A program made the translations under genes and the position numbers. Source: Deltaproteobacteria bacterium (GTDB lineage Bacteria > Myxococcota_A > Bradymonadia > REDH01). Taken from it: a DNA stretch of 64,000 nt. Shown in pieces: positions 3-17,695 of this stretch (the first letter of the stretch is position 1; each line of letters opens with the position of its first letter). A model generated the notes under the pieces. That model was given only the letters and a program-made list of their open reading frames with translations, ran no database searches and was not told the origin of the DNA. The DNA lies in assembly GCA_007693585.1 (NCBI GenBank), contig REDH01000075.1:29100-93099 (forward strand). Reading direction: 5' to 3'.

Positions 3-545
3 ATGCGCATGCGCGAGATCGAAGACCGCGTCGGAGAACTCAAGGACGAGGTCTTCCGTTCGCGTTCTCGCCTCTTTCTGCTCCGCGAGCAGGTGCTTCA
101 GGATCGAATCGGCGGATCCAGGGTCGTGATCAACCACCGCGACCGCCTGGGCAACCGCTACCGCGTGGTCCGGGTGCTCTACGCGCTCAACGGCGAATCG
201 GTGTTCGTGGCCAACGAGGATACGACGGACTTTGCGGCCATTCGACACCATCAGGTTCACTCGGGATCGGCCATTGCGGGTCCCCAGAACATCACCGCTC
301 AGGTGTGGGTCGTCGGGAACCCGCTCGGTGTCTTCTCCTACATGTCGGGTTATCGCTTCACCATCCGGAACGCGCACTCCTTCAGCGTGGAAGAGGGCCA
401 GACGGCCGAGATTTCGGTGGTGATCGAGAGCCGGGGCGGCGTGAACACGCCCATCGACGAGCGGCTCGTCGTTCGCTTCGATGCCGACTTCTACGACACC
501 GTGGATGGGGTCGGTGACGAGGTCGCTGCCGGGCAGACCCCCTGA
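3..545 (+). CDS. Envelope-machine associated hypothetical protein (N-terminus at window edge)
   Basis: I do not recognise a named family with certainty. The first ~35 residues are a charged helix likely to form a coiled coil (IEDRVGELKDEVFRSRSRL), followed by a beta-rich C-terminal half containing RNAHSFSVEEGQTAEISVV and DERLVVRFDADFYDT. No signal peptide is visible, but the first ATG is at base 3 of the window, so the true start, and possibly an export signal, may lie upstream. The stop codon overlaps the next start by one base (TGATG), so it is translationally coupled to the big TPR gene. Small proteins with this coil plus beta layout accompany TPR genes in myxobacterial Glt-like clusters; membership in the same machine is an inference from coupling and position. 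Confidence 0.7.
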   Translation: MRMREIEDRVGELKDEVFRSRSRLFLLREQVLQDRIGGSRVVINHRDRLGNRYRVVRVLYALNGESVFVANEDTTDFAAIRHHQVHSGSAIAGPQNITAQVWVVGNPLGVFSYMSGYRFTIRNAHSFSVEEGQTAEISVVIESRGGVNTPIDERLVVRFDADFYDTVDGVGDEVAAGQTP

Positions 546-3229
546 TGTTCCTGCGCTTTCCTCATCTCGGGGTCTCCGCGTTCGCCGCGTGTCTGGTCCT
601 CGTTCCGCCTGTGACCGCATCGGCCCAGTCGGTAGGCGATCTGCGCTCTTCCGTGGAGCGAGTCGAGGGCATCATCGCGGACATGGCGACGTTCGATGAA
701 CGCTTTCTCGGTGATCTCTACATCGATCGGGCACGAGACTTCGAGCGCCGGATGGTGGAGGGACGGCTCCTGGTCGACCTCGAGCAGCATGATGCCGCGG
801 CCATCCTGCTGATGGACCTGTTCGAAGACCCCCGGCATCGTGAGCGTCCGGAGCGCACGGAGCTGCAGCGCCTGCTGGCGGACAGCCTGTACGCATCGGG
901 GGTGCATGATCTTGCGGTGCTGCATTACCGGGCGCTGTTGTACGAGCGAGATGCGGAGCTTCAGGTGCATGCGGGTCAGCGCCTGCTGGACATCGCCCTC
1001 CGAACGGGGCGCGTCGACCGTCTGCCGGAGACTCTCCGTGTGCTTGAGGAGGCCCTTCAGGGTCGGGACGCCGACGACGAGCTCAACTATCTGCGTGGCC
1101 GGGCGCTCTTCCACACCGGGGAGCGCCAGGCCGCCCTTCGGGCGTTCGATACCGTTCGCGGGAGCAGTTCGCTGGCAGAACGAGCATCCTACTTCGCAGC
1201 CGTCGTCGAGGCGGCGCTGGGGGACCACGAGGCTGCCCTGAGTCGGTTCCGCGATCAGTTCACGCGTCTCGCAGACGCCGGCGATGAATTGGCCAGAGAA
1301 CTCCGCAACCTTGCGGCACTCGGTGCGGCGAGGGTTCTCTACGAGCAGGGGAACTGGACCGGCGCACTGGGATTCTACGGTCGCGTGGATGCGGATTCGC
1401 GGCACTTCGACCGAGCGCTCTACGAGAGCAGCTGGACGATGATTCGCCTGGATCGCTTGCCGCAGGCCAGTCGCGATCTGGAGATTCTGGCTCTCACCGC
1501 ACTGGACAGCCGAGTTCGGCCCGAGGCGCTGCTGCTGCGGGGCGAGACGGAGCTGCGGCGTGGCGAGTTCGACTCGGCTGTTGCCGTCTTCGAGGAAGTC
1601 AGGGCGGCCTATGAGCCGATCGAGGACGAGGTGCGAGACGCCATGGGTCTTCTCCAGCGCCGCGTGCGGGAGGAGGGGGTGACCATCGAGGGCTTGCGGA
1701 TTCGACGCATCCTGTCGCCCCGCGCGCGCGACTGGCTGGATCGGGGGCGGGGGTCGGCCTCCCTGCTCGAAGACCTGGAGGACCTTCAGGCGGAGTTGCT
1801 GTTTCAGGTACAGCTCGTCGAGGACCTGAACGAAGCGCTGGCGCTCGATCGGCAGATCGCGGGATTTCCCATCCTGCGGAACGGCTGGAACCTCGCGCTG
1901 CAGTACCGAATGGAACTCGTGGCCATGGAGTCGTCGTTTCTCGACATGGAGCGCGATGCGCTCTGGGATCGACTGTCCGATGAAGAAAGGACGCGCTATC
2001 GAAGCATTCGCAACCAAAGGGTGATGCTGGCCCGCCAGGTGCAACGTCTGCCCAGCACAGCCCGGGCGATGGGGGAGCGAGAGGAACAGCGTGCGGCGCG
2101 AATCCGAGGCGCCGAGCAGGAACTCTTCCTTGCCATGCAGGAGCTGGAGGCCGATTCGGCCAGGCTCGATGCGATCGAGCAACTCGTGCGCGACGCACAG
2201 CGCCGCGGGGAGCCAATGGAGGACGAGGAACGGATTTTCGGGAACCTGGAGGTGTCACGCCAACGCGCTGCCGCCAGGATGGAAGTTGCGGAAGATCTGC
2301 GTCGACGACTCTCCCGCCTGCGTGCCGAGGCGCTCGGTGGAGGAAGCCTTACCCCGGATGAACGAGCCGCGCTCGACGCGTACGAGACGGTCGTTCTCGA
2401 GGAGCGTACCTTTCTTCAGCAGTACCGTTCCCGAGTGAGAGGATTGTCACCTGTCGACCCGGGGCGAGGCGACGCATCCGGGCGCGTTGCCCGCCTGCAG
2501 GCCGAAGGCGTCCTCGTGCGACGGGACCTGCGACAGCTACTGGACGAGATCGGACCGATCGAAGCCGCCCTGGATGACGAGCAGTCGCTCACGGAGAGCG
2601 AGCGCTCCCGAGCCCGCGCCGAGCTTGATCGATTGCGGGCCGACCTCGCTGCGCTGCTCGAACGGCTCGACGACGAGGTGGTGGCAAGGCTTCAGCGCGA
2701 GGAGGCAGCTCTCGGTGACGTCGTGGACGAGAGCGAACACGAACGCACCGCGAGGGTGGAAGAAATGGTCGATGATCTGATCCTGCTGGAGCGCGGCGCG
2801 CTGACCGCGGCCGAGATCGAACGTCGAAGGGAACTGCTTGGGCGGATCGACGAGGCCCGGGCCCGTCGTGATGTGGCAGAGCGCCAGGTGGCGGGGTTCT
2901 TCGCCGCCGCACAGGCGGTCGTGGCTGCTGAAGGTGATCGACTGCGGATCGCGCTCGATGCAGCCACCGATGAAGTGATCGCCCTTCAGGAGCAGTACGT
3001 GGTCACGGAAGCCGTGGCGCGACGCGCGGCGCTCGATCAGGCGCTCCTCGCCCTGGCTGGGGTGCGAGACCGCTTCGCCGATATCAACCTTCGGGCGAAC
3101 CTGGGCGTGCTGGACGTCTCATGGCGCGAGTTCGAGGAAGCCACAACCGAGCGTCGGAATGTCACACAGGAGCGAATACGTTCACTCAATGTGCTTCGCG
3201 CCGACTTCGAAGAGATTCTTGGGGAGTAG
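545..3229 (+). CDS. Exported TPR and coiled-coil protein (894 aa)
   Basis: A typical signal peptide (residues 1-28, cleavage near ASAQS) is followed by about 300 residues of TPR-like helical pairs, for example AAILLMDLFEDPRHRE and ALLYERDAELQVHAGQ. The remaining ~500 residues are highly charged, heptad-rich helix ending in a conserved-looking tail (LDVSWREFEEATTERR). It should be a long periplasmic scaffold. Start chosen at 545 because it overlaps the preceding stop by one base and places the signal peptide at the N-terminus. The next gene begins 5 bases after the stop. In Myxococcus, large TPR proteins of the GltD/NfsD kind connect the inner-membrane motor to outer-membrane parts; that role is inferred here from context. 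No catalytic motif was seen. Confidence 0.85.
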   Translation: MFLRFPHLGVSAFAACLVLVPPVTASAQSVGDLRSSVERVEGIIADMATFDERFLGDLYIDRARDFERRMVEGRLLVDLEQHDAAAILLMDLFEDPRHRERPERTELQRLLADSLYASGVHDLAVLHYRALLYERDAELQVHAGQRLLDIALRTGRVDRLPETLRVLEEALQGRDADDELNYLRGRALFHTGERQAALRAFDTVRGSSSLAERASYFAAVVEAALGDHEAALSRFRDQFTRLADAGDELARELRNLAALGAARVLYEQGNWTGALGFYGRVDADSRHFDRALYESSWTMIRLDRLPQASRDLEILALTALDSRVRPEALLLRGETELRRGEFDSAVAVFEEVRAAYEPIEDEVRDAMGLLQRRVREEGVTIEGLRIRRILSPRARDWLDRGRGSASLLEDLEDLQAELLFQVQLVEDLNEALALDRQIAGFPILRNGWNLALQYRMELVAMESSFLDMERDALWDRLSDEERTRYRSIRNQRVMLARQVQRLPSTARAMGEREEQRAARIRGAEQELFLAMQELEADSARLDAIEQLVRDAQRRGEPMEDEERIFGNLEVSRQRAAARMEVAEDLRRRLSRLRAEALGGGSLTPDERAALDAYETVVLEERTFLQQYRSRVRGLSPVDPGRGDASGRVARLQAEGVLVRRDLRQLLDEIGPIEAALDDEQSLTESERSRARAELDRLRADLAALLERLDDEVVARLQREEAALGDVVDESEHERTARVEEMVDDLILLERGALTAAEIERRRELLGRIDEARARRDVAERQVAGFFAAAQAVVAAEGDRLRIALDAATDEVIALQEQYVVTEAVARRAALDQALLALAGVRDRFADINLRANLGVLDVSWREFEEATTERRNVTQERIRSLNVLRADFEEILGE

Positions 3230-3234: not shown

Positions 3235-6200
3235 ATGCGGATTCCCGAATGCTTTCAGTCCCGTCTGACGGACACGCTGCGCTCGGCGACGCTTGTGCTG
3301 TCGATCCTGCTCGCACATGGGGCGGTGGCGCTCGCCGGCGACGTACCCGACAACCCCGGCGACATGGAAGCGATGCGTCAAGGGGCTGCCGATGAGGACA
3401 CGTCAGCCGATGAAGAGGGAGACGACGAATCCGCGTCCAGCGAAGATCGGGACGAGGAAGTTGGGGGGGGGCTTTCACGTTCGCTGCCGAGGGCGAGCGG
3501 ACTATCGGCACGCGGCCGTGTGGAGCTCGGGCGATACGAGGAAGCGTTGCGCCTCTACTCCGATCAGTTCGAAGCGTTCCGCGAAGCCGTGGCTCGCGTC
3601 GTGCAGGAGGAGTACGAGCGACAGGTGCGGGTGATTGACGAGCGGCTTCAGCCTCGCATGGAGGAAGCGCGGAACCGGGAGACAAGGCACCGGCGGGACG
3701 CAATTGCTTCGTTCAGCCAGTTTGCGGAGCGATATCCGGATCATCCCGAATTTACAGGTGACGTTCTCTTCCGCCTCGCTCGACTCCAGAACGAGGAGGA
3801 GCAATACCTCCACATTCAGGCACTGAACGCGTACGACGAGCAGCAGCGGCGGTACGAGCTCGGCATGATTCCGGAACCGCCGACCTTTCCCATGCTGGAA
3901 CATGTGGACAGCCTTGCCACACTCTCTCGATTGCTGGAGACCTTTCCGGAATACCGTTACGCGGACGCGGCCCTCTACCTGCTTGCAATCGGCCAGCAGG
4001 ACGAGGAACTGGGCATGGCCTACTATGAGCGACTGATCCGGGAACGGCCCGACTCGGAGTTTGTCCAGGAGAGCTGGCTGCGAATCGGAGAACTTCTGTT
4101 CGATCTTGAACGGTTCCGAGACGCTCGCGAAGCATACCAGGAAGCGCTCGCCCTCGGCCCGTTCAACCGTACCGACCTCACTCTCTTCAAGCTCGGGTGG
4201 ACGAACTATCTCCTCAACGACTTCGGGTCTGCCCTGGAGAACTTTCACGATCTGCTCGTGCTGTATCAGGGAGACGAAGAAGCGGCATCGGTGCTGGAAG
4301 AGGCACGTCAGTACTACGCAATCGTTCTTGCCGAGCGCGACTGGAACCTCGATGGTCAGGTGGACGAGGACTTTCTCATGCCGCGTGTGCGGCACTATCT
4401 GTCGGGAGACGCAGGCTACGAACTGCCGGTTCTTGACGTCATGGCGGAGTTGCTCAGGGAACTCGAACCGCGCGAAGAGTACCTGCTTCACACCTCGGAT
4501 GTCATGGCATTTGCGGTCGCGAACTTCCCGCTCGATCGGGATACACCATCGCGCCATCTGCTGGTGTACGAGATTCTCTACGCGCTGGACTATGAGGAGG
4601 AGGCCGTGGCGGTCCTCGCCGAGATTGCGGCAAACTACGGTCCCGACAGCGATTGGTTCCTTGCCATGGAGCTTCAGGGAGAGATCGAGGCCATGGCGTT
4701 CGCCGAGCGACTCGGCCGTGAAGCCATGCTGAACAGCGCGGCGATCGCATTCTTTCGTGGCCGAACCCATCGGGACGAGTACGAACTGTCAGGCGATGCG
4801 ACCCTCGACGAGCGTGCTGTCGCATCCTTTCGGCAGGCGGCAGAGATCTACGGCGACTTTCTGAGCAGTTTTCCGAATGACGAAGCGGTCTACGAATCGC
4901 GATTCTTTCGGGCACGCGCACTCCATGAGGCACGACTGTACGAGGACGCCGTGGAGGAGTATGCCCGGGTTCGGGACTCCCGGTTGAGCGAGGCGCATCA
5001 GGAGGAGAGCGCAGCGCGACACATCGAGGCTCTCACGGCCCTTGCGCAGCAGGAGGTCCTGGCCGGGCTTCTCGACCCGAGGGGCGTCCCGGATCAGCCC
5101 AGCGAATGGCCCCGGCCGCTCGACGAAGGCGAAATCCCGGAGCCGGAGTCCATTCCCGACCGACTCCGGCAATTGCTCGCTTCGTACGACCGCTACATCG
5201 AGCTCGACGTCACGGTAGAGGACAGCCCCGAAGTTCAGGGCGAGGTCGCCCTCGCTGCCGCGCGAATCCTCCTGGAGTACGAACACAACCGTGAGGCGCG
5301 CCAGCGCTTCGTGCAGATGTTCGACCGGTACTGCGGCGAACGCCCGGCGGGCATTGCCGCGCTACTCCTGATTCAGTCGTACGAACGGGAGGGTGATTAC
5401 CGACACATGGAGTACTGGGCGAATCAGGTCGAGACCAGGTCGGACTGCATTTCACTGCCAGGTGACGATGCACAGCGCTTCGCGGAGAATATCGACATCT
5501 ACCGACGCAATGCTGCGTTCGCGAATGCGGAGAGACTGCGGGAGGCCGGGCGCTACGAAGCCGCAGCGCGTGAGTTCACACGAATCGCAGAGGCCTATCC
5601 GGAGTCCGATGATGCGCCGATCGGGCTCTATTTCGCCGGTGAGATCTACGAGGAGGAACTCCGACGATATGACCTCGCCATGGAGCGCTTCCGCACGCTG
5701 TACGAGCGCTATCCCGACACGCGATTCGCAGAGCCCGCTCTCCTCAGCCTTGCCATCAACTCGCAACAGTTCTTCGACTTCGATGGTGCGATTGCAGCCT
5801 TTCGTGAACTGCATACGCGCGGCTTCACCCTGCCCGCGGAAGGGGGAGGGCCCCGTTACCCCATCCTTGTGGCTGCCGAGATGCACGAAGTTCAGCGACA
5901 GCATGATCAGGCGGCAGAGGCTTACCTGATGTTCGTGGACGACAACCCCCGGGCACCGGAAGCGCCCCGTGCACTGTACAGGGCCGCCGTGAACCTCGAT
6001 GAGTCGGGTCGACAGCGTGAGATGGCAGACCTGATCGAGCGACTGATTCGTGAGCACGGAACACAGTCCGAAGTCGGCGGCTTCAACATCGACAACGCAG
6101 TCATCGATGGACTGGCGCGCGTGGCCGCATGGCATGGTGCACGCAACGACGCTCGGAATCTACGTCGCTTCGAGGACCGCGTTCTCAATGAATTCGAAGG

Positions 6201-6942
6201 CCGTGTGCCGCGTGATTGGGAGACCCCGGAGGAGCTGGCCCGAAACGCTCCTGCCCGGCGCGCGGCGGCCGACATCGCGATGCGACGTGCCCAGGAGTCG
6301 GTCGCCGAGTGGAGGCGTATCTCCGTCAGCAGCAATCCCCGCGCCGCACAGCGAGACATCGAACGAAAGAGGGATGGTCTCGCCACGGCGATTCAGGAGT
6401 TCGTGGACGTGGATCGATTGTTCAATGATCCGGACGCCAGCATCTGCGCCCGGCTCGAACAGGGACGGGTCGCGCGCGAAATGGCGGACTTCATCTTCGA
6501 TCTTCCGGTGCCCGACTTTCAGGGGGACATCTACGCGGAGGACGCGTACATGGAAATCATCGAGGACATCGTCCGACAGTATGAGGAAGTTGCTCTCGCC
6601 GAATGGCTGGAGCTGTACAACCTCATCGAGGAGATGGGCGTCGTGAACGACTGTACCATCGAAGCCTCGACCCTCCTGAATCAACGGTTCGGCGCCGAGT
6701 ACCCTGCCTACAAGCAGCGAATGCGTCCAGCCAGCTCCCGCGTGCTCTTTCCGGGGCTCATCAACGTGCCGGTAGGCGTTTCGGTCCGTGCCAGCCATGC
6801 ACCAACGCCCGACACGAATCTCGACGATATTCCGGCGCGCACCGATGCGTCTGGTCGGGACGAGGAAGCTTCGGAGCCGCCCGGTGCGAGCGAGACCGAA
6901 GTTCGTGCCGCGCCGAACGAGGAGGAGCCGGAGGATGAGTGA
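3235..6942 (+). CDS. Giant exported TPR-repeat protein (1235 aa)
   Basis: The ORF track starts at 3121, but the convincing start is the ATG at 3235. It sits 8 bases after GGGGAG, 5 bases after the previous stop, and begins a clean signal peptide (LVLSILLAHGAVALA). An acidic linker (about residues 40-80) leads into more than 1000 residues of TPR/outer-membrane-assembly-type repeats. Typical repeat phrases are AIASFSQFAERYPDHPEF, RLLETFPEYRYADAALYLL and FRTLYERYPDTRFAEPALL. The C-terminal ~60 residues are Glu/Pro-rich and disordered. Size and architecture recall GltD (AgmU)/NfsD-type periplasmic TPR proteins of the Myxococcus gliding and spore-coat machines. The assignment is by architecture only. 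It overlaps the next gene by 8 bases. Confidence 0.85.
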   Translation: MRIPECFQSRLTDTLRSATLVLSILLAHGAVALAGDVPDNPGDMEAMRQGAADEDTSADEEGDDESASSEDRDEEVGGGLSRSLPRASGLSARGRVELGRYEEALRLYSDQFEAFREAVARVVQEEYERQVRVIDERLQPRMEEARNRETRHRRDAIASFSQFAERYPDHPEFTGDVLFRLARLQNEEEQYLHIQALNAYDEQQRRYELGMIPEPPTFPMLEHVDSLATLSRLLETFPEYRYADAALYLLAIGQQDEELGMAYYERLIRERPDSEFVQESWLRIGELLFDLERFRDAREAYQEALALGPFNRTDLTLFKLGWTNYLLNDFGSALENFHDLLVLYQGDEEAASVLEEARQYYAIVLAERDWNLDGQVDEDFLMPRVRHYLSGDAGYELPVLDVMAELLRELEPREEYLLHTSDVMAFAVANFPLDRDTPSRHLLVYEILYALDYEEEAVAVLAEIAANYGPDSDWFLAMELQGEIEAMAFAERLGREAMLNSAAIAFFRGRTHRDEYELSGDATLDERAVASFRQAAEIYGDFLSSFPNDEAVYESRFFRARALHEARLYEDAVEEYARVRDSRLSEAHQEESAARHIEALTALAQQEVLAGLLDPRGVPDQPSEWPRPLDEGEIPEPESIPDRLRQLLASYDRYIELDVTVEDSPEVQGEVALAAARILLEYEHNREARQRFVQMFDRYCGERPAGIAALLLIQSYEREGDYRHMEYWANQVETRSDCISLPGDDAQRFAENIDIYRRNAAFANAERLREAGRYEAAAREFTRIAEAYPESDDAPIGLYFAGEIYEEELRRYDLAMERFRTLYERYPDTRFAEPALLSLAINSQQFFDFDGAIAAFRELHTRGFTLPAEGGGPRYPILVAAEMHEVQRQHDQAAEAYLMFVDDNPRAPEAPRALYRAAVNLDESGRQREMADLIERLIREHGTQSEVGGFNIDNAVIDGLARVAAWHGARNDARNLRRFEDRVLNEFEGRVPRDWETPEELARNAPARRAAADIAMRRAQESVAEWRRISVSSNPRAAQRDIERKRDGLATAIQEFVDVDRLFNDPDASICARLEQGRVAREMADFIFDLPVPDFQGDIYAEDAYMEIIEDIVRQYEEVALAEWLELYNLIEEMGVVNDCTIEASTLLNQRFGAEYPAYKQRMRPASSRVLFPGLINVPVGVSVRASHAPTPDTNLDDIPARTDASGRDEEASEPPGASETEVRAAPNEEEPEDE

Positions 6943-8389
6943 CTCTGCGGGACATGTGTTTTTCGCCCGAGGTGTGCTGCTGAGCTTCTGCCTCATGACG
7001 GCATGGGGATGCGCTGCGGGACATCAGCAGGCAACTGCAGACCCCTCCGATGGCATTGCAGTGACCCCCCAGCAGCGCCCGAATCCGGAGCTGGTCCACT
7101 CCATCTGGGACGAGGACGCCGTGGCGTTCGAGCCCGATGAGGAACGACCCGCTGTCGACGAAGCTGCCGACGATGACGACGATCTTCTCGATGTCGAACT
7201 GGAAGAGGAGTTTGCGGACGTACTCCCGCCCGAAGAGGAGCCGGAGACCGAGGAGCCCTGGGACGCGCGAGCGCTTGAGGCCTTCGCCGCAGCACGCGCC
7301 GATGTACTCGGCTCTCGCTATTCGAACGCGCGACGAACGCTCCAGACATTTCTGGACCACGAAGACCGGCGTGTCCGTTCACTGGCGCAGCACAACCTTG
7401 GCGTGGTGGCATGGTACGAGGGAGACCATGTGTCCGCCGAGAGCGCGTTCAGACGCGCCATGGACGAAGACCCAGGCCAGGCCGCACCGCTGAGAGCGTT
7501 GGTGAGGCTGTATCTCGCGGACGGACAGCACGACCATGCACGGTCTCTGGTACGCGAGCAGGTGACCCTCTCGGAAGAAGCGGCCTCGATTCGAGCCGTG
7601 GAGCTCCTGCTCCTGCTGGAAGAGGGACGCGATCAGGAAGTGGAGGAGCTGTCCCGTGCACTCCTTCTCGAAGATGGAGCCAACCTGGATATCTTTGAGG
7701 CCCTTGCCTTCACACAGCTCAACGCCCAGCGACTTCCGCTTGCGGAGTATATCGCGGAGCAGGGACTCGAACGCGACGAGACACGAACCGAGCTGTGGTA
7801 CGTGAGGGCAGTGACGGCAATGGAAAGAGGCGACAATCTGACCGCAATCCGCCATCTGGAAACGGCTCGGGAGCGCGGAGCAAACACGCGACAGCCCGAG
7901 CTGCTGAATCTGCTGGGCGTACTCTACCTCCGAACGCTACGCTGGGAGGATGCACAACGTGTTCTCGAGGAAGCCACGAGAGCTGCTCCCAGCTACGCCG
8001 ACGCCTGGGTCAACCTTGGAAATGCGCATGTAGGCTTGCGTGACTATGATGCAGCTCTCGTCGCGTATACGAGAGGACGTGATCTTGGCCTCGAAGGGGG
8101 CGGTCCACTGTTCAACCTGGGCCTCCTGTACATGGAACCCGGCTGGGAGCACATGGAACGCATCGCGCAGCTTCGAGAGGCAATCGAATTCTTTGATCGA
8201 TTCGCTGCGGAGCGTGGCGACATTCCCGAGTCACATCTTGTGCACGAGTACCGACGTGAAGCGCTGGCCGCAATTGAGGGAATGGAAGCGCTCGCGCGCC
8301 CACGAGAGCAGCCTGTCGAGCCGGTGTGCGACGACCCGTTCGGCTGCGACGATGAGCCGGTGTGCGACGACCCGTTCGGCTGCGACTGA
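6935..8389 (+). CDS. TPR lipoprotein with duplicated Cys/Asp tail
   Basis: Start chosen at ATG 6935, inside the end of the previous gene (8-base overlap) and right after a GGAGGAGCCGGAGG Shine-Dalgarno stretch; the longer ORF start at 6788 lies deep in that gene. The N-terminus ends in LMTAWGC, a plausible but imperfect lipobox, so this is probably a lipoprotein. An acidic segment (about residues 45-100) precedes eight or so TPR units, such as AESAFRRAMDEDPGQAAPL and ADAWVNLGNAHVGLRDYDAA. The last 24 residues hold two copies of EPVCDDPFGCD, which could form disulfides or bind a divalent metal. TPR lipoproteins of GltE/NfsE/AglT type occur in related motility clusters; equivalence is inferred. 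Confidence 0.85.
   Translation: MSDSAGHVFFARGVLLSFCLMTAWGCAAGHQQATADPSDGIAVTPQQRPNPELVHSIWDEDAVAFEPDEERPAVDEAADDDDDLLDVELEEEFADVLPPEEEPETEEPWDARALEAFAAARADVLGSRYSNARRTLQTFLDHEDRRVRSLAQHNLGVVAWYEGDHVSAESAFRRAMDEDPGQAAPLRALVRLYLADGQHDHARSLVREQVTLSEEAASIRAVELLLLLEEGRDQEVEELSRALLLEDGANLDIFEALAFTQLNAQRLPLAEYIAEQGLERDETRTELWYVRAVTAMERGDNLTAIRHLETARERGANTRQPELLNLLGVLYLRTLRWEDAQRVLEEATRAAPSYADAWVNLGNAHVGLRDYDAALVAYTRGRDLGLEGGGPLFNLGLLYMEPGWEHMERIAQLREAIEFFDRFAAERGDIPESHLVHEYRREALAAIEGMEALARPREQPVEPVCDDPFGCDDEPVCDDPFGCD
8318..8386 (+). repeat. 36-bp-period tandem duplication encoding EPVCDDPFGCD
   Basis: Two identical 33-base copies (8318-8350 and 8354-8386), separated by GAT, form the very end of the TPR lipoprotein gene, immediately before its TGA. 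Identity at every base, including synonymous positions, suggests a recent duplication or strong conversion rather than old protein repeats. Confidence 0.9.
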
Positions 8390-9688: not shown

Positions 9689-10477
9689 ATGGCGAAGCGA
9701 CGCAGGAAAGATGTGGTGGATGAGGTCCAGGATCTGAACCTGGCGCCGATCATGAACATGGTCATGATTCTCATTCCACTGCTGCTTCTCTCCACCGAGT
9801 TCATGAAGGCCGGTGTGGTCAACATCAGCTCGCCGCGACAGGCACAGGCGACGCAGGCTGACAGCGAGGAACAGGAAGAAGAGGATCCGGTGCCCCGAGT
9901 ACTGATCGCGATTTCCAGTGATGGTTTTCGTGTGATGGACCAGCGCAACCTTCCGGACTTCGCTGGCTTCACGACGCCGATCGAGCGATGTGGCGGCGCA
10001 GCCGCGGCGGGTGGAGAGGAGACGCCGGCGGGTGGGTCGCCCCACGCGCGAGCAGAGACCCTTCCGCCGACGATTTGCTTGCGCACGGAGTCGTCCGATG
10101 GTGACGCGCTGCTCGACCGGCTGGATTACGCCTCGCTCTACAATCACCTTGCGACCATCCGGCTTCAACCGCAGTGGTACGACCGGTTCTCCGAGGAGAA
10201 CAATGACGTGATCAGCCTGCTCGCCAGCCCCGAGGTGGATTTCGCGTCGCTGATGAAGACCATGGATACCGTCCGGTTCTTCCTGAGGCCCGAGGGTACG
10301 GATCCAGGTGAGCCAAGTGGCGGAGCGAACATAGACGCGTTTCTGTTGGGGGGAGGCGGCGAGCCGACGCTCGAGCAGCTCGAGAACGCAACGTATCTCA
10401 CCGGAGGCGAGGACGGCCCGTACCGGTTCCGACTGTTTCCCGACCCAGTGCTGATGTTGCCGCGTGCAGGTGGCTGA
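9689..10477 (+). CDS. ExbD/TolR-like motor protein with Asn in place of the proton-carrying Asp
   Basis: Start chosen at ATG 9689 after GAGGAGGAG. A basic cytoplasmic N-terminus (AKRRRKD) is followed by one membrane helix, LNLAPIMNMVMILIPLLLLS, and a ~220-residue periplasmic part. In TolR/ExbD the helix normally begins TPLVDV with an Asp that carries protons; here the equivalent residue is Asn23. The periplasmic part is larger than in ExbD (total ~140 aa there, 262 here). It includes an Ala/Gly-rich loop between two Cys (IERCGG ... PTICLR) and an acidic linker after the helix. It probably pairs with the next TolR-like subunit, which has the Asp, so the two may not be equivalent. Function as half of an asymmetric motor stator is inferred. 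Confidence 0.85.
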   Translation: MAKRRRKDVVDEVQDLNLAPIMNMVMILIPLLLLSTEFMKAGVVNISSPRQAQATQADSEEQEEEDPVPRVLIAISSDGFRVMDQRNLPDFAGFTTPIERCGGAAAAGGEETPAGGSPHARAETLPPTICLRTESSDGDALLDRLDYASLYNHLATIRLQPQWYDRFSEENNDVISLLASPEVDFASLMKTMDTVRFFLRPEGTDPGEPSGGANIDAFLLGGGGEPTLEQLENATYLTGGEDGPYRFRLFPDPVLMLPRAGG

Positions 10478-10549: not shown

Positions 10550-11155
10550 ATGTCTGACATTATCAGCGGACCGCAGCAGGATCAGGATGACGCGCTGGAT
10601 GCGGACAAGAAGGCGAAACGCGCCGCTCGTTCCGCTTCAAGGCGCGACGACGGTGGTGGTGGGCTGAACATCAACTCGATGATGGACATGATGACCATTA
10701 TCCTGGTGTTCCTTCTGAAGAGTTACAGTACCGAGCCCATCCAGATCAATCAGAGCGAGGACCTCCGACTTCCCTGGTCAACCACGGAGTTGGCGCCCGA
10801 GGACACGATGACCATCACGCTCACGAAGACGAGTGTCCTTGTGAATGACGAGCTTGTGGTTGCGGTCAACGATGATGGTCGAATCGACCCATCGCATCTG
10901 CAGTCCGCCGATTCGCCACTGATCCCCAATCTTCAGCAGAAGATCGAGGACGAGCTTGAGGTAGCCGCCCGAAATCGGCTTCGAGGTTCAGGCGATGTCC
11001 AGCGCGTGGTGACCATCATTGCGGATTCTGATGTGCGTTACGAACTCCTGACTCAGGTGATGATCACGGCGTCTGCGGCGCAGGTGCAGAACTTCAAATT
11101 TGCGGGAATTCAGCGCGAACAGGGATCAGGTCTGCTGCAGGCGGCTGCGCCCTGA
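10550..11155 (+). CDS. ExbD/TolR-like motor protein (AglS/AglQ-like)
   Basis: A 201-aa protein with a charged cytoplasmic N-terminus of ~38 residues, then a membrane helix beginning LNINSMMDMMTIILVFLL. Asp46 sits at the position of the proton-carrying Asp of ExbD/TolR. A periplasmic domain of ~140 residues follows, with the TolR-type segment VTIIADSDVRYELLTQVM near 143-160, matching the canonical 'hxaDxxxxyxxhhxhh' region. GGAGTAGGT precedes the ATG. It is the canonical partner to the TolQ-like subunit upstream, and together with the Asn-variant TolR it makes a three-gene motor like AglRQS. It acts in the inner membrane, presumably pulling on the bitopic AgmX-domain protein encoded next or on the TPR scaffold. 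Confidence 0.92.
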   Translation: MSDIISGPQQDQDDALDADKKAKRAARSASRRDDGGGGLNINSMMDMMTIILVFLLKSYSTEPIQINQSEDLRLPWSTTELAPEDTMTITLTKTSVLVNDELVVAVNDDGRIDPSHLQSADSPLIPNLQQKIEDELEVAARNRLRGSGDVQRVVTIIADSDVRYELLTQVMITASAAQVQNFKFAGIQREQGSGLLQAAAP

Positions 11156-11257: not shown

Positions 11258-12628
11258 ATGGCGACACAGTCCGGACAGAAGATTCTCCGAGTAGGTGTGA
11301 TTCAGAACGATCGGGTGATCGAGGAACGAATCTTCCGCACTCGTGAGTCCGTGACGATCGGTCAGGGGTTCCAGAACACGCTGGTCGTCCCGCTGGCCGA
11401 GGCGCCGAAGTCCTTCACGCTCTTCGATGTGCGCGGCGGGAAGTACTACCTGTGCTTCACGCCCGAGATGAGCGGCCGAGTGGCATCGGGAGCGTCCGCC
11501 ACTTCCCTGGCCGAACTTCGTTCGAGTGGAAAGGCCACGGTGTCCGGAAAGGCGGCGATGGTCGAGCTGCCGGAGAATGGACGGGGCAAGGTCACCCTTG
11601 GGGAAGTGACGTTCCTGTTCCAGTTCGTGAATCCACCTCCACTCCGCGTCCTTCCGCAGCTTCCCGCGAACATGCGCGGGGGAATGCTTCAGTTTCTCTC
11701 GACGATCATGGGTTTGAGCGGCGCCTATCTCTGGGCATTGCTCTTCTCGTTCATCGTGCAGTTTGGAGCTGCGCTCTACCTGGTTCTGCTTGTCCCGCCG
11801 CCACCGCGCCCTCGCAGCATTGATGAAATGTCGAGCCGCTTCGTGCGGGCTGTGGAGCTTCCAGAGCAGCAGGAACAGGAGCCCGACGAGTCGGAGCCGG
11901 ATGACTCCGCCGAGCTCGTGCCGGAGGCGGCACCCGAGCCCGAACCAACGCGGGAGCGGGAGCCTGAGCCGGAACCGTCGGTCGAACGACGTCCGTCGGA
12001 GACCCGGGAGGAAGCCATGCGAGTGGTGGAACAGACTGCGATCGGCGCTGCCTTTGTAGCCGACGGTGGCATTGATCTGGGACTTTCCGCGGTAGATCGA
12101 ACGGGCCAGCGTGACCTTTCCGAGGTGCTGGCCGGCGGAAATATCGGAGGGTCCGAGCCCGGGCTGGCGAGCAATCTCGGTGCCCGTCCAGGGATCGATC
12201 CCGGTCAACGGCCGGCGACAGGGAGCAACATCGACACCAGCTCAACGGGACCGGCCGTCGCGACAGGGCCTGCCGACTCCGGGCCGAGTCGACCCACCGG
12301 GTCCATTCGTGCAGGCGGCTTCGAAACGGCCGGGACCGGTTCACTCGATCGGGACAACATCAACGGGGTGCTTCGTCGCGCGAATCGACAGATCGAGTCG
12401 TGCTATCAGCGCGCACTCGGAAACAACCCGAGTCTTGCCGGACGAATGGAGGTGCGTTTCGAGATCGGTGGCGATGGTCGAGTGGCCAGCGTGCGGATTC
12501 CGAGCCACAATCTTGGACGAGAAGTGCAGTCGTGCATCGAGGGTGTTTTTCGCGGTCTGAGGTTCCGTGCGCCCGACGGCGGATCGGTCTGGGTGCAGCG
12601 GCCGTACGTCTTTTCGTCCGGACGCTAG
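11258..12628 (+). CDS. Bitopic FHA-like/AgmX-domain protein (GltG-like)
   Basis: Three parts are visible in 456 residues. Residues ~8-125 are a beta-rich cytoplasmic module with an FHA-like opening (TRESVTIGQGFQNTLVVP). One membrane helix follows near 155-180 (LWALLFSFIVQFGAALYLVL). A long Pro/Glu-rich periplasmic linker then leads to an AgmX/PglI-type C-terminal domain from ~365, with IESCYQRAL, VRFEIGGDGRVASV and QSCIEGVFRGLRF. That last domain is TonB-like and typical of GltG/GltJ (AgmX) proteins, which transmit motor force to outer-membrane partners. Encoded directly after the TolQ/TolR/TolR genes, it is the natural energy transducer of the cluster. A paralogue lies at 32781-34067. The FHA-like call is weak because the canonical SxxH motif is not obvious. 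Confidence 0.88.
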   Translation: MATQSGQKILRVGVIQNDRVIEERIFRTRESVTIGQGFQNTLVVPLAEAPKSFTLFDVRGGKYYLCFTPEMSGRVASGASATSLAELRSSGKATVSGKAAMVELPENGRGKVTLGEVTFLFQFVNPPPLRVLPQLPANMRGGMLQFLSTIMGLSGAYLWALLFSFIVQFGAALYLVLLVPPPPRPRSIDEMSSRFVRAVELPEQQEQEPDESEPDDSAELVPEAAPEPEPTREREPEPEPSVERRPSETREEAMRVVEQTAIGAAFVADGGIDLGLSAVDRTGQRDLSEVLAGGNIGGSEPGLASNLGARPGIDPGQRPATGSNIDTSSTGPAVATGPADSGPSRPTGSIRAGGFETAGTGSLDRDNINGVLRRANRQIESCYQRALGNNPSLAGRMEVRFEIGGDGRVASVRIPSHNLGREVQSCIEGVFRGLRFRAPDGGSVWVQRPYVFSSGR

Positions 12629-12849: not shown

Positions 12850-13422
12850 ATGGCTAGTCTACGTATCTTCGTTACGGGTTCTTGGGCCGCGCTCATGCTG
12901 ATTGTGCTTTGCTCGGTGGCGTTTGCCGTCGAGGAAGAACCCGAGCAACTCTCGGACGAGGCGGTCGATGCGTTGATGGAGGAGGCCGCCGAGCTCCTCG
13001 CTGGAATCAACAGTGACGTGGAGCGGGTCGTGGCGATCGAGGGCGAAGTGCGAGGCAGCGACCCCGATCTTGCGGATTCGTGTGTTGCTCCGGTTCTGAC
13101 CACCATCCGGGCCATCGGAAGAAGCGCCCAGCAGCAAGTCGAGGCGATGTCGGGCCTGGTGCAGGACGGCCGTTCAGACCAGCTGAGCAGGGAGATGAGC
13201 TCCCTGAGCCGGCTCGCTGCGCAGGCCGCAGGAAGCAGGCAGGAGGCGGAGCGCTGTCTCGGTGAAGCCGAGGGAGTGAGTGATCCCGTGGACGGACAGA
13301 CAAGGTCCGCCGAAATCGACGAACCCCTTGATGGAGCGGATCTCGACATGGAGTTCGATGCCGTGGTTGACGACGACGTGGTTGTCGATGATCGTACGCC
13401 GGAAGCAACTCCCTTCTTCTGA
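12850..13422 (+). CDS. Small exported helical protein (190 aa)
   Basis: ACAGGAG lies 6-7 bases before ATG. A signal peptide (AALMLIVLCSVAFAVEEE) is followed by mostly helical sequence with two Cys (DSCVAP and AERCLGEA) that could form a disulfide clamping two helices. The last 40 residues are acidic and disordered. I do not recognise a family. The stop codon is one base before the ATG of the beta-barrel gene, so the two are probably coupled, and the helical protein may be a periplasmic partner of that barrel. The 221 bases before it contain no gene or convincing terminator. Confidence 0.8.
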   Translation: MASLRIFVTGSWAALMLIVLCSVAFAVEEEPEQLSDEAVDALMEEAAELLAGINSDVERVVAIEGEVRGSDPDLADSCVAPVLTTIRAIGRSAQQQVEAMSGLVQDGRSDQLSREMSSLSRLAAQAAGSRQEAERCLGEAEGVSDPVDGQTRSAEIDEPLDGADLDMEFDAVVDDDVVVDDRTPEATPFF

Positions 13423-13423
13423 G

Positions 13424-14734
13424 ATGTCCATGATGCGTTCGTTCATGTCCACCAATCGCCGGAACCCGTCGTGTGCCTTGTCGGCACTCGCGGTGAGCGT
13501 TCTGATGGTGTCGACCTTTGCGGGAACCTCAGAGGTGGCGGCGCAGGACGGCGTGTCAGTCGGTGAGCTGCGCCTTGGCGCCGGACTCGGCGCGGGTGCA
13601 GGGTACAACAGCAATCTGTTCCTCGCCGCCGATAACAATCCCGATGGACAGGTATCGTCGGTCAGCGCCTTCGTGGAGCCACGGATCGGCCTGTCGACCA
13701 TCGAGCCGAGAAGCTACGACTTCGATCTCGAACTGTCGGCCGAATGGATGCAGTACATCAGCGAAGAAGAAGGCGAGCGGGAGCAGAGTGGACTATCATT
13801 GACGGGACACACGGGTCTGCGACTCAATCCGATTGGGGATGTCAGCGCTGCGGCATCCTTCCGGGTAAGGCGAACGAACGACCCCGCCTATTCGGTCGAC
13901 GGTTCACCGCTGCGGAACTGGCGTTTGGCACCCGGCGTGGAGGTCGGTTTCCATCCCGGTGGAATCGGGGAGTCGCGCCTCGGATTCAGCGGTTACCTGC
14001 GTGGCACGTATCGAGTCGCCCGGTTCGAAGAGCGGTCGCAGCTCGATCGAAACACCCCAGGAGTCAGTGCGCGGCTTCAGTACAATTTCCTCCCGCGAAC
14101 GGCCCTCTACGTCACCGGCGGTCTGGCGCGAACGATGTACGTGGATGAGCGCGATGAGGAAGGAGGAGCGGGGGAGGATGCCCGGAGTGCCGCGCGTTCG
14201 GACTCGACGTCGCTGAACGGTGTTCTCGGTTTCACAACAGCCTGGACGCGGTTTCTTGGAACACGTACGGCTGTAGGTTACGCAAGTATCAATCACGATG
14301 TGGGCCCCAGTGCGGCAGCGTTGACAGCCGAGGCATCGGTGATGCTGCAGCCTGTGTCCTCCCTTCGGCTGACCGCTGGATGGCGGCGAGGGCTCGAGGA
14401 TTCTCCCGTGGCGAATGCGCTCCGGTATGATGGGATTCGGCTCGAGGGAAGCTACCGGTGGAACATCGTCGAGCTCGAGGCGTATACGGGTCTTCGCTTC
14501 GTGAGACTCGATTCGTTCGTGTCCGGAGATGGAGAACTCGAGGATCGGACGGATCGATTGCTGGACGCCGGTTCGTCGCTGCGGGTGGCGGTGGCTCGAA
14601 ACGTCGGGATCGGTGTGCGCTACCGGCTGCGAAGCAGTCTGGATGAAGCGGAAGAGTTCGAGGAGGGTGTCAGTGCGCTGCCCCGCGGCTATGTGCAGCA
14701 TCTGGTCTCGGGTGGAGTGGATGTCCGGTTCTAG
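13424..14734 (+). CDS. Outer-membrane beta-barrel protein, likely polysaccharide export partner (Wzp-like)
   Basis: Several ATGs are possible (13424, 13430, 13433, 13448). I take 13424, one base after the previous stop. The signal peptide ends near SEVAAQD. The mature ~400 residues alternate in the manner of a transmembrane beta-barrel, beginning with GAGLGAGAGYNSNLFLAADN, a pattern common in 'outer membrane beta-barrel' proteins of polysaccharide loci, and ending with an aromatic strand (LVSGGVDVRF, terminal Phe). The OPX gene starts inside its last 14 bases. In Myxococcus, short OPX proteins work with a separate ~18-stranded beta-barrel (WzaX with WzpX and its paralogues) to make a composite export pore. 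This coupled pair fits that model; the functional assignment is inferred. Confidence 0.85.
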   Translation: MSMMRSFMSTNRRNPSCALSALAVSVLMVSTFAGTSEVAAQDGVSVGELRLGAGLGAGAGYNSNLFLAADNNPDGQVSSVSAFVEPRIGLSTIEPRSYDFDLELSAEWMQYISEEEGEREQSGLSLTGHTGLRLNPIGDVSAAASFRVRRTNDPAYSVDGSPLRNWRLAPGVEVGFHPGGIGESRLGFSGYLRGTYRVARFEERSQLDRNTPGVSARLQYNFLPRTALYVTGGLARTMYVDERDEEGGAGEDARSAARSDSTSLNGVLGFTTAWTRFLGTRTAVGYASINHDVGPSAAALTAEASVMLQPVSSLRLTAGWRRGLEDSPVANALRYDGIRLEGSYRWNIVELEAYTGLRFVRLDSFVSGDGELEDRTDRLLDAGSSLRVAVARNVGIGVRYRLRSSLDEAEEFEEGVSALPRGYVQHLVSGGVDVRF

Positions 14735-15401
14735 CCAACGGACGTCTCCGCGAGCACAGTCGAAAGGAGGAGCGGTTGCGCTACGGAAGCAGCGCGCGCT
14801 GCTGGTCCTGTTGGTTCTGTGCGTCGTGGGATTCGCGTCTGCATGCGGTACGCGGATCAGTTCCGACTATCTCGCGCACTCGCTGGATTCGTTTCAAGGC
14901 GAGTTCTCGACTGCATTGGGTCCGGGTGATCGGTTCGAAGTCCGGGTGTTCAGGGAAGAGGAACTCTCTGGGGAGTACTCCGTTTCATCCCGTGGGATAG
15001 TCGGCTTCCCGCTTGTCGGTTCGTTTGAGGTTGCGGGCCTGAGCTGTGAAGACGTGGAAGAGATTCTGGTGGAGCGCCTGGGTGATGGGTTGATTCATGA
15101 ACCATCGGTACAGTGCAGGATCGTCGAGCAGAGATCCCTGCAGGTTCTGGTCGTCGGTTCTGTGAGTTCACCGAGGAGCATTCCCTACTCGGATTCGCTC
15201 ACGATTGTGGAAGCGATTGCGTTGGCGGGGGGACTGTCGCAGAATGCGTCCGAGGACCGTGCCATTGTCACGCGGCGTGTGGACGGAGAGATGGTGGAGA
15301 TTGAGGTGCCGCTTCGGCTGGTCATGAGTGGACGGGCTCCCAACCTGCGGCTCTGGCCGAACGACCTTGTGTTCGTGCCGGCTTACCGGTTTCTGCAGTA
15401 G
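14721..15401 (+). CDS. Short OPX-family polysaccharide export lipoprotein (Wza-like)
   Basis: Start chosen at ATG 14721, which overlaps the barrel gene by 14 bases and is preceded by GGTGGAG; the in-frame region after the barrel stop has no start codon before the signal peptide. The hydrophobic segment ends VVGFASACG, a likely lipobox. The mature protein has the Poly_export domain (LGPGDRFEVRVFREEELSGE ... GIVGFPLVGSFEVAGLS) and one SLBB-like domain (QVLVVGSVSSPRSIPYSD ... LTIVEAIALAGGLS), then ends with LWPNDLVFVP. At 226 residues it lacks room for the C-terminal amphipathic helix with which E. coli Wza crosses the outer membrane, so it would need a partner barrel. Confidence 0.93.
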   Translation: MSGSSQRTSPRAQSKGGAVALRKQRALLVLLVLCVVGFASACGTRISSDYLAHSLDSFQGEFSTALGPGDRFEVRVFREEELSGEYSVSSRGIVGFPLVGSFEVAGLSCEDVEEILVERLGDGLIHEPSVQCRIVEQRSLQVLVVGSVSSPRSIPYSDSLTIVEAIALAGGLSQNASEDRAIVTRRVDGEMVEIEVPLRLVMSGRAPNLRLWPNDLVFVPAYRFLQ

Positions 15402-15451
15402 AACGCTCACGGTGTGGGTGGCCACGGTCCACCGGAAAGGAACAGGGAGCC

Positions 15452-17695
15452 ATGGAAGCTGGGGAGCGTCGAGAGTCTAGTGCGGGGGACCGGAACGCCG
15501 ATGGTTCGGTGGCGGCGGTCCAGTTCTGGATCGGCCTTCTGTGGAGACACGCCTGGGCCATGCTCGCGGTGTTCGTGGTCGTGTCTGCCGGAGGGTACTG
15601 GTACACCATGCAACAGCCGAATGTCTATCAGGCTTCGGCAACGGTACTTGTGTCGCCCGAAGGCGATCAGGTTCGCGCGCTGAGTCCTTTCGGAGATGGA
15701 GCGGCTCCACAGGGGAGCAGCTTCATGGCCAACAGGATCCAGTTCGCCATGCAGGAGCATCTGCTGCGGAGTCCCGAGCTTCTGGACGAGGTCGCCGAGA
15801 GGCTATCGTTGCGGAGTAGCCCATCATTCCTCGGTCTCTTCGGTGACGAAGCCACACCAGACGCGATTGTGGAACGATCGGCAGTTGCAAATCCGGCGAT
15901 CATGCTCCGCGGAATGCTGCGCGTGAACGCGGATGATGAGCGAAGAGTGGTGCAGATTACGATGTCCTCCCGGGATCCTGTTCTGGCCGCGGACGTGGTG
16001 AACGCTGTGGCGGAGGCTCACGTGGAGAGGAACCTCCTGCGCCAGCTCGAGGCCACGGATCAGGCGCTGGACTGGTTGATGGAGCAGAGCGCAAGCCTTC
16101 GCTCCTCATTGGAGAACGCCGAGCTTGCGCAGTTGGACTATCTGCGTGACCAGGGAACGCTTTCGGTCGCGCTCGACGATAGGCGGAACCTGAGCGTGCG
16201 CGCCGTGGAGGAGTTGAGCACTCAGCTGGCGAACGCAAGACTGGAGGTGGACAGGCTGGGTTCGGTCGTGCGGCAGATTCGCACGTACGACTCACTGGAT
16301 GATCTGCTTGCGGCGAATATTCCGGAAATACTGGATAACAGCATGATTCAGTCCTTCAAGGGTCAACTGGTGGCTCTGGACGAGAGGGACCTGGAACTGC
16401 GCGAGCGCTACGGTGAGCTGTGGCCTGAGCGACGCGCGGTACTCGCAAGAAGGGAGATGCTGGAGAATGTCCTTGAGCGGGAGATCCAGAACGTTCTTCG
16501 TTCATACGTCCAGCGTTTCGAGACGGCACAGCTTCTCGAGCGTACGGTGGCCGAGCGGCTGTCCAGCGCGCAACGGGATGTTTTGCGAAGTGGAGAGAAC
16601 GAAATTGCATTCAACGCGCTCCGTCGTGAAGCGGAGACGAATCGCGAGCTCTTTGGAGTGATGGAGCGCCGGCTGAAGGAGATCGAGCTTCACCGCATGT
16701 TGCAGCACAACAACCTCAGTGTGCTGGAGTCCGCAGTCGTCCCCGTCGTTCCCGTTCGGCCGCGAAGGGCAGTGTATTTTCTCGCGACACTGTTGCTTGC
16801 GGGTGTTCTGTCCCTTGGAACCGCTCTTGCGCTGGAGTTTCTGGATCAGAGCGTCAAGCCCGATACCGACTTCGACCGCGAGTTCGGACTTGGACTCCTC
16901 GGAATGTTGCCGGAGATCTCTGCAGGCAAGGGGCGTCGAGGGAGTTCGCGTGGTCCGGCCAAGGGCCAGGAGTTCAACCCCGACATCTTCGTTCACAGCT
17001 TTCCACGTTCCGGAATGGCGGAAGCGTGTCGGTCCATCCGTACCAACCTCTTGTTCATGGACCGTGAGGACACGCTGAAGCGAATGCTGGTAACGTCCAG
17101 CGGACCGCGCGAAGGGAAGACGCTGACATCGGTCAGCCTCGCTACGGTGTTCGCGCAGTCCGGGAACCGCACGGTGCTTGTGGATGCGGACATGCGCAAG
17201 CCAAGACTCGGAAGGGTGTTCGGGGTCGATGATGCAGGTCGAGGTCTGGTCAATGTGTTGGTGGGAGAGTGCACGCTTGATGAGGCGCTCGTGGAAACCG
17301 AGGTGCCGGGCCTCTTCTTGCTTCCGTGCGGTTCGGTACCTCCGAATCCGGTCGAGATTCTGCACTCGGTGGCCTTCGGCCGCTTGCAGGACGAGCTGGA
17401 CGAACGATTCGATCGAGTGCTTTTCGACACGCCTCCTGTCGGTCCGGTGACGGATGCGCGTGTCCTCTCCGGGAGGGTGGGCGGCGTTGTTCTTGTCGCG
17501 CGCGCGTCGCATACGAACAAGGATGCGTTCGCGCGCGCGATCGATGACCTTGACGCAGTCAAGGCCAATCTCCTCGGCATTGTGCTGAACAGCGTGAACT
17601 TCGAGAAGCGGTCAACGGGAGGTGGGTACTACCGGTACTACTATCAGCAGTACAACCAGTACTATGGGGATGCGGAGGAGTCAGCGAGCAGCTAG
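15452..17695 (+). CDS. Wzc-type polysaccharide co-polymerase and BY-kinase
   Basis: The N-terminal Wzz-type half has membrane helices near 36-50 and 440-465, flanking a periplasmic coiled coil (about 60-435). The cytoplasmic BY-kinase domain follows. It contains Walker A SSGPREGKT (about 548-556), Walker A' VLVDADMRKP, Walker B VLFDTPP, and a C-terminal Tyr cluster GGGYYRYYYQQYNQYYG for autophosphorylation. At 747 aa it is a standard single-chain PCP-2 kinase controlling chain length and export of a surface polysaccharide. AAAGGAACAGGGAG precedes the ATG. It is the last gene of the left operon; no glycosyltransferases, flippase or polymerase are linked in this window, so the polymer must be made elsewhere. 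Confidence 0.95.
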   Translation: MEAGERRESSAGDRNADGSVAAVQFWIGLLWRHAWAMLAVFVVVSAGGYWYTMQQPNVYQASATVLVSPEGDQVRALSPFGDGAAPQGSSFMANRIQFAMQEHLLRSPELLDEVAERLSLRSSPSFLGLFGDEATPDAIVERSAVANPAIMLRGMLRVNADDERRVVQITMSSRDPVLAADVVNAVAEAHVERNLLRQLEATDQALDWLMEQSASLRSSLENAELAQLDYLRDQGTLSVALDDRRNLSVRAVEELSTQLANARLEVDRLGSVVRQIRTYDSLDDLLAANIPEILDNSMIQSFKGQLVALDERDLELRERYGELWPERRAVLARREMLENVLEREIQNVLRSYVQRFETAQLLERTVAERLSSAQRDVLRSGENEIAFNALRREAETNRELFGVMERRLKEIELHRMLQHNNLSVLESAVVPVVPVRPRRAVYFLATLLLAGVLSLGTALALEFLDQSVKPDTDFDREFGLGLLGMLPEISAGKGRRGSSRGPAKGQEFNPDIFVHSFPRSGMAEACRSIRTNLLFMDREDTLKRMLVTSSGPREGKTLTSVSLATVFAQSGNRTVLVDADMRKPRLGRVFGVDDAGRGLVNVLVGECTLDEALVETEVPGLFLLPCGSVPPNPVEILHSVAFGRLQDELDERFDRVLFDTPPVGPVTDARVLSGRVGGVVLVARASHTNKDAFARAIDDLDAVKANLLGIVLNSVNFEKRSTGGGYYRYYYQQYNQYYGDAEESASS

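Follow-up and report, generated by a model that had tools for sequence, protein, structure and literature searches.

The window analysed here, a stretch of 64,000 nucleotides at the end of a 93-kb contig, opens with thirteen genes (g1–g13) in which a TolQ/TolR-type motor, a TPR scaffold and a transducer adjoin the outer-membrane exit of a polysaccharide exporter. On balance, we consider it probable that this locus encodes a dedicated, proton-driven trans-envelope transducer that acts on a polymer at the exit of its own Wzp/OPX channel. The evidence comes from the conservation of the gene order across the Myxococcota, from the position of the transducer, g9, in a tree of its relatives, and from a counterpart in Myxococcus xanthus. 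All thirteen genes lie on the + strand, from 171 bases upstream of the window to position 17695, and their family matches agree with the parts named in the initial annotation of this DNA: TPR scaffold, TPR lipoprotein, a motor of one TolQ and two TolR, AgmX transducer, barrel, OPX protein and bacterial tyrosine kinase (BY-kinase). The features are as follows.

g1, 1–545 (+), 238 aa: exported protein with a coiled coil and a beta-sandwich domain; conserved first gene of the locus
g2, 545–3229 (+), 894 aa: TPR and coiled-coil protein, GltC-like (NF033756, 59 bits, E=3.6e-16, below the 450-bit cut-off)
g3, 3235–6942 (+), 1235 aa: large periplasmic TPR protein with the size and position of GltD/AgmU (TPR families, tol_pal_ybgF repeats)
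g4, 6935–8389 (+), 484 aa: GltE-like TPR protein, probable lipoprotein (NF033758, E=1.4e-12, below cut-off)
g5, 8416–8694 (+), 92 aa: small exported protein at the GltF position
g6, 8932–9576 (+), 214 aa: TolQ/AglR-type motor subunit (PF01618, MotA/TolQ/ExbB, E=4.9e-26; tree)
Hairpin, 9591–9624 (+): 14 pairs and then T5, between g6 and g7; possible attenuator
g7, 9689–10477 (+): first TolR-like subunit, with Asn23 instead of the membrane Asp (PF02472, ExbD/TolR, E=3.6e-6)
g8, 10550–11155 (+): second TolR-like subunit, with the membrane Asp46 present (PF02472, E=5.1e-10)
g9, 11258–12628 (+): GltG-like transducer (NF033760, 103.9 bits, cut-off 650; GltG E=8.5e-30)
g10, 12850–13422 (+), 190 aa: exported helical protein with conserved C78 and C136, without a Pfam family
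g11, 13424–14734 (+): outer-membrane beta-barrel, Wzp/EpsX type (PF10082, BBP2_2, E=5.3e-06)
g12, 14721–15401 (+), 226 aa: short class-3 OPX protein, probable lipoprotein (PF02563, Poly_export, E=2e-15, and SLBB)
g13, 15452–17695 (+): Wzc, a Wzz-type co-polymerase and BY-kinase with a Tyr-rich tail (TIGR01007, 190 bits, cut-off 108; TIGR01005)

Motor, scaffold and exporter form a conserved locus

The initial annotation had taken motor, scaffold and exporter to form a single locus, and other genomes bear this out. We inspected gene order at 20 loci, of 5–20 kb each, around the best g9 matches in relatives. They share the same order, and an OPX gene lies downstream of g9 wherever the contig extends far enough. 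Within the class, the order g1-g2-g3-g4-g5-g6-g7-g8-g9-(g10)-g11-g12 recurs, mostly at 25–45% protein identity, and part of it, the scaffold-g9-barrel-OPX portion, recurs across the phylum. We therefore rejected the possibility that the genes are neighbours in the window's genome only.

A scan of the g9 alignment against 84,980 species genomes returned 80 loci, all titled Myxococcota or unnamed or old 'delta' metagenome-assembled genomes, except for one Comamonas record that groups with Myxococcus. Some genomes are represented in both sets of loci. Among the named Myxococcota loci, downstream genes were counted at the 63 that have 4 kb or more of sequence on that side and upstream genes at the 53 that reach far enough the other way; an OPX gene was scored if it lay on the same strand and no more than 9 kb away. 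It can be seen that the scaffold is kept throughout (53/53), that a barrel follows the transducer at 59 of the 63 loci and an OPX gene at 52, and that motor genes are present at 29 of the 53. The BY-kinase, which the initial annotation had counted as a machine part, is present as g13 but is the least conserved component, a Wzc gene being found at just 13 of 63 loci. Nine genomes without an OPX gene near the locus all encode OPX elsewhere, and in seven of the nine it is of the g12 type, with g12-model scores of 161–247 bits; the remaining OPX proteins in Myxococcus and Archangium reach 90–120 bits. These loci were accordingly rejected as counter-examples.

The same counts bear on whether the two halves need be mechanically coupled at all. 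The locus might encode a Tol-like complex for envelope integrity or outer-membrane assembly, with the exporter genes merely co-inherited or co-regulated. This would fit with the departure of motor genes from the locus in many genomes, and of OPX in some, while the rest is retained, and with the lack of a known mutant phenotype for the related G4 cluster of M. xanthus (PMC3169522). However, the order survives across the phylum at about 30% identity, none of 23 paralogous Glt/Nfs-type loci has an OPX neighbour, and genomes with OPX off the locus usually keep one of the same type. We regard linkage of this kind as unlikely.

In both the g9 and the TolQ tree, the Comamonas record (L088, BNCN01000011.1; title, Comamonas sp. 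KCTC 72670) clusters closely with Myxococcus; it is probably mislabelled or mixed.

The transducer belongs to a clade separate from Glt and Nfs

g9 has an FHA-like cytosolic region, a single transmembrane helix, a Pro/Glu-rich periplasmic linker and an AgmX/PglI C-terminal domain (NF033768, 77.5 bits, cut-off 40, E=6.3e-22). The g9 tree divides into two clades with 96% support in the Shimodaira-Hasegawa-like approximate likelihood ratio test. The first, of 97 proteins, contains the window protein and all 65 OPX-linked members; many of its members scored as 'no OPX' are on short contigs, and a few divergent ones (L250-L254) have no OPX in the stretch read. No member of the second, of 23, has an OPX neighbour; among them are the true GltG of Myxococcus (L196, 1097.8 bits against a cut-off of 650), solo AgmX proteins, other Glt/Nfs-like clusters and a second Glt-like cluster of the window's genome (L197).

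Like the Glt system (GltA-K plus AglRQS), the locus has GltC-, GltD-, GltE-, GltF- and GltG-like proteins and a motor of one TolQ and two TolR. The initial annotation had suggested a profile search for Glt proteins, and this does return GltC, GltE and GltG matches, but all of them fall far below the curated NCBIfam equivalog cut-offs (59 against 450, 47.4 against 225 and 103.9 against 650 bits, respectively). None of GltA, B, H, I, J or K was recognised among the 13 genes, and genome-wide there is no GltJ above its cut-off. Unlike Glt, the locus adds Wzp, OPX and Wzc components and has Asn for Asp in one TolR-like subunit. Membership in Glt or Nfs was rejected on these sub-cut-off scores and on the separate g9 clade, which marks the locus as a sister type of machine, neither Glt nor Nfs.

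Resemblances to other systems are similarly partial. Nfs is, by analogy, also a Glt-like transducer acting on a secreted polysaccharide, but it borrows AglRQS, its exporter ExoA sits in a separate exo locus (PMC3858216), and Glt/Nfs-type GltG proteins fall in the clade that has no OPX. The 'core complex' of GltC, D, E and G plus AglRQS described in gammaproteobacteria, Geobacter and others, of unknown function (Luciano et al. 2011, PMC3169522), likewise clusters scaffold, motor and transducer; no exporter is mentioned there, a distinction drawn from that description only. As for Tol-Pal, g6 scores only 54.3 of 221 bits for TolQ, and no TolA, TolB or Pal is found among the 13 genes.

A gliding machine with its own slime exporter could also combine a Glt-like transducer with an Agl-type motor, and Glt is thought to work together with slime (PMC3858216). 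Yet the locus lies outside the Glt clade with scores far below the GltC/E/G cut-offs, M. xanthus mutants in the related G4 and M2 gene sets glide normally (PMC3169522), and in L197 the genome has another Glt-like cluster, which includes a giant TPR protein, and no GltJ above cut-off. We consider gliding a very improbable function for this locus.

L197 itself (C83, 1-18000) carries GltC-, D-, E-, F- and G-like genes followed by a TPR frame of >3000 aa resembling GltI; no motor and no OPX are found in the 18 kb read. The window contains a second GltG-like protein at 32775-34067 (GltG 139 bits, AgmX 109 bits), which lies beside xseA and falls in the no-OPX clade; it was rejected as a part of the locus, being a stand-alone gene.

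The counterpart in Myxococcus xanthus

The M. xanthus G4 cluster, which contains the gltD homologue MXAN_1922, and the M2 motor (MXAN_3004) have been described as being of unknown function (Luciano et al. 2011, PMC3169522). Separately, the 'orphan-like' MXAN_1915, which lies 1 Mb away from the other genes of the biosurfactant polysaccharide (BPS) pathway, has been assigned to that pathway as its WzaB (Islam et al. 2020, PMC7310880), and MXAN_1916 is the WzpB barrel (PMC9603273). At the Myxococcus locus L106, the stretch from the GltD-like gene to OPX consists of eight genes, encoding GltD-, GltE- and GltF-like proteins, g9, a putative cyclic-nucleotide-binding protein, g10, the barrel and OPX. 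These match the eight tags MXAN_1922-MXAN_1915, the comparison being with the gene order of the Myxococcus locus and not with the DK1622 sequence; by the same gene order, the g3 orthologue (L106:4283-8101) corresponds to MXAN_1922, and the gltG homologue of G4 would be MXAN_1919. Since eight genes match eight tags and the ends are the gltD homologue and WzpB/WzaB, we conclude that the G4 cluster would run directly into wzpB-wzaB as one locus.

L106 and L088 share the order g1-g2-g3-g4-g5-g9-g10-barrel-OPX with the window's locus, and g9 of the M. xanthus contig L090 falls in the window's clade. The initial annotation's statement that motor, scaffold and exporter are all separate in Myxococcus thus has to be revised: the G4 scaffold and transducer adjoin wzpB-wzaB (L106, L088), and only the motor and Wzc lie elsewhere. 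In this respect Myxococcus differs from the window's locus, which includes both; its motor would be M2, and WzcB is 1 Mb away. It also differs in having the cyclic-nucleotide-binding gene between g9 and g10. The OPX genes of a Myxococcus-like genome (G060) number exactly three: EpsY, which is above its cut-off, one that is linked to G4, and a third that is neither.

The main text of PMC3169522 never uses the word 'polysaccharide', and PMC9603273 does not contain 'glt'. The relevant passages of the 2025 review PMC12288465 make no link between G4 or M2 and WzpB/WzaB, and we found no paper outside subscription journals linking G4 or M2 to WzaB. Each half was known separately; in the literature consulted we did not meet with their linkage and its conservation, with the distinct clade, or with G4 and M2 being paired with WzpB/WzaB.

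The putative cyclic-nucleotide-binding protein, named by its sequence, is encoded at L106:11345-11797 and also in L094 and L100 (Myxococcus, Archangium), and perhaps regulates the machine.

The motor has an asymmetric TolR pair

Genes g6, g7 and g8 encode one TolQ-like and two TolR-like proteins in a row, an AglRQS-type arrangement. In the TolQ tree, the clade of motors encoded within such loci also takes in the second Agl-type motor found in Myxococcus and Archangium (C57, C3, C132; support 91-93), and the C11 motor, taken as AglRQS, falls outside it. With the window models, the two TolR-like neighbours of this second motor likewise give better scores than do the neighbours of C11. According to Wartel et al. 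2013 (PMC3858216), M. xanthus has a single further complete Agl set, MXAN_3003-5, which is needed for neither motility nor sporulation. By elimination, since only one such set exists, C57 is evidently M2 (MXAN_3003-5), with G4 as its natural partner.

The two TolR-like subunits differ at the membrane position. The first has Asn in 52 of 70 relatives and Asp in 16, and the second has Asp in 68 of 72. Most relatives share this asymmetry. Both subunits carry Asp in the second motor of Myxococcus (L192) and in an AglRQS-type motor (L193), unlike the window's locus, where g7 is without it. An Asp-to-Asn substitution in AglQ abolishes Agl function (PMC3858216), and the motor therefore appears to run with a single Asp per TolR pair. 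Within the window's genome, g6-g8 form the only set of one TolQ and two TolR recognised; given that no motor accompanies the L197 scaffold in the 18 kb read, this one may be shared between the two.

Three loci from one family of the class (L252, L253, L254) have a motor and g9, but neither a scaffold nor a barrel or OPX could be recognised in the sequence read there.

The exporter

The AlphaFold model of g11 has 18 strands (predicted local distance difference test, pLDDT, 83.4), and its closest solved folds in the PDB are general porins. Eighteen strands are also reported for WzpX/EpsX, ExoB and WzpB (PMC9603273 for WzpB). The beta-barrel of the initial annotation is therefore present but is to be placed with the exporter: on this model, g11 is a predicted Wzp-type barrel that goes with OPX and not with the Glt-type barrels. 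The periplasmic domains of g12 span residues 65-219, with no outer-membrane-spanning part as judged from length and domain span only. The locus thus resembles the class-3 OPX/Wzp translocons EpsY/EpsX, ExoA/ExoB and WzaB/WzpB in having a short OPX without an outer-membrane helix, an 18-stranded barrel and Wzc. It differs in that the other Myxococcus OPX genes are not G4-linked, and only the clade of the present locus adjoins a motor-driven transducer.

In a search of the whole draft genome (4.97 Mb, 97.7% complete), g12 was the only OPX found. The co-polymerase gene g13 adjoins the exporter, as in the Wzx/Wzy-dependent pathway. The genome search returned one Wzx-type flippase (PF13440) and Wzy_C candidates that were sub-threshold only, and no PF02397 initiating transferase was found in this 97.7% complete draft. 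Among relatives, UDP-sugar dehydrogenase, epimerase, glycosyltransferase and Wzc genes lie 3' of OPX in L225 and L226, and a Wzc gene lies near the corresponding locus of Sandaracinaceae L113.

A model for the machine

In the model that we favour, TolQ (g6) would surround a heterodimer of the TolR-like g7 and g8 and be driven by the proton-motive force. g9 would span the inner membrane, couple to the motor and extend into the periplasm through its AgmX/TonB-C-like end, and the TPR proteins g2-g4, together with g1, g5 and g10, would relay its movement towards the outer membrane. The output would be the Wzp-type barrel g11 and the short OPX ring g12, fed by Wzc g13 and exporting a polysaccharide. 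The transducer could then move or arrange the exit complex, or the polymer emerging at or after the exit, much as Agl-Nfs does with spore-coat polymer, with the exporter here built in. In the Myxococcus version, G4 (approximately MXAN_1922-1917) and WzpB/WzaB (MXAN_1916/1915) would work with the M2 motor (MXAN_3003-5) on BPS as cargo. We infer the physical coupling, the transfer of force, the cargo and the assignment of M2, and the proposal of the initial annotation that the machine pushes or distributes a surface polymer would follow in the same way. That Agl-Nfs moves polymer after export (PMC3858216) supports a version in which the exit complex or the polymer is moved.

Several observations weigh against this model. 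A polar MXAN_1922 mutant has no appreciable change in motility (PMC3169522), unlike published wzaB mutants, which are impaired in type IV pilus-dependent swarming. The difference would follow if wzpB-wzaB had a transcript of its own in M. xanthus or if export could proceed without the transducer, and it speaks against a simple requirement of the transducer for export. BPS is released and not surface-bound (PMC7310880 and PMC12288465), which makes it an odd cargo for a machine with a surface-moving role. In the Glt and Nfs systems, export of slime and of Exo continues in Agl mutants, and Nfs does not colocalise with the sites at which Exo is exported (PMC3858216). Motor genes are missing from 24 of 53 loci, and contact of g9 or the scaffold with the barrel is presumed.

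A rival reading is an energised form of export, in which g9 would act like TonB and force derived from the proton-motive force would open the Wzp/OPX channel or ratchet the polymer through it. The TonB-C-like end of g9 and a motor of the ExbBD/TolQR class would suit such a role, the only OPX of the genome is at the locus, and of the exporter parts it is the barrel that stays with the transducer most consistently (59/63, compared with 52/63 for OPX). The absence of a wzaB-like swarming defect in the polar MXAN_1922 mutant speaks against it, as does the fact that the OPX/barrel pairs for exopolysaccharide and spore coat in Myxococcus lie outside any such locus, only the third OPX being G4-linked; OPX/barrel export as such thus needs no motor. 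Of the two, we find energised export the less likely, and a transducer acting on the exit complex or on the emerging polymer the more likely.

The furthest-reaching possibility, which we put forward as a tentative one, is that this would be the first outer-membrane polysaccharide channel to draw its power from the inner membrane. In this view, a proton motor of the TolQR type, whose asymmetric TolR pair has a single Asp, would drive Wzp/OPX through a trans-envelope TPR scaffold; the machine, kept in M. xanthus as G4, M2 and WzpB/WzaB, would be ancestral and may be older than gliding and spore-coat assembly. Two M. xanthus components of unknown function, the G4 transducer and the MXAN_3003-5 motor, gain a predicted partner and cargo in the BPS exporter WzpB/WzaB, so that two unknowns of a model organism become directly testable. 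The locus also suggests a role for the Glt/Agl 'core complex' before gliding, and prompts the question of whether the proton-motive force can power channels made of a short OPX and a barrel.

Transcription and accessory genes

The genes had been annotated as mostly overlapping or closely spaced. This holds for seven junctions with overlaps or gaps of ≤50 bp (g1/g2, g2/g3, g3/g4, g4/g5, g10/g11, g11/g12 and g12/g13) but not for g5-g6 (237 bp) and g9-g10 (221 bp), nor for g6, g7, g8 and g9, spaced by 70-115 bp. Because of the gaps of 237 and 221 bp and of the hairpin with its T5, a single transcript across the locus is plausible only. No comparable hairpin is uniformly present in relatives, and a conserved terminator between the TolQ and TolR genes was rejected on this ground; the hairpin of the window is a strong one and possibly a partial terminator that could set subunit ratios.

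g1 starts 171 bases before the window (L005:18929), and positions 3-545 are its 3' portion. Its AlphaFold model (pLDDT 78.6) has a helix at 54-94 and a strand-rich domain; g1 matched no Pfam family, and a PDB search gave only weak, uninformative beta-sandwich matches. A Cys lies within the signal region of g4. g5 is kept at the same place in 15 of 20 relatives examined (GltF, for comparison, has 89 aa). A counterpart of g10, from a family of about 190-230 aa, sits between g9 and the barrel in most relatives, and both Cys residues are invariant across 36 aligned members, which were picked by the first Cys motif.

At L070:12993-16799 and L136:12929-16768, a protein of about 1270 aa, with FG-GAP repeats in L070, is encoded between g9 and the barrel and is possibly a surface protein of the machine. 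Downstream of g13, on the opposite strand, lies a gene that is ribF-like by its sequence (17812-18783), and in the relative L203 ribF (FAD synthetase/flavokinase) likewise follows OPX.

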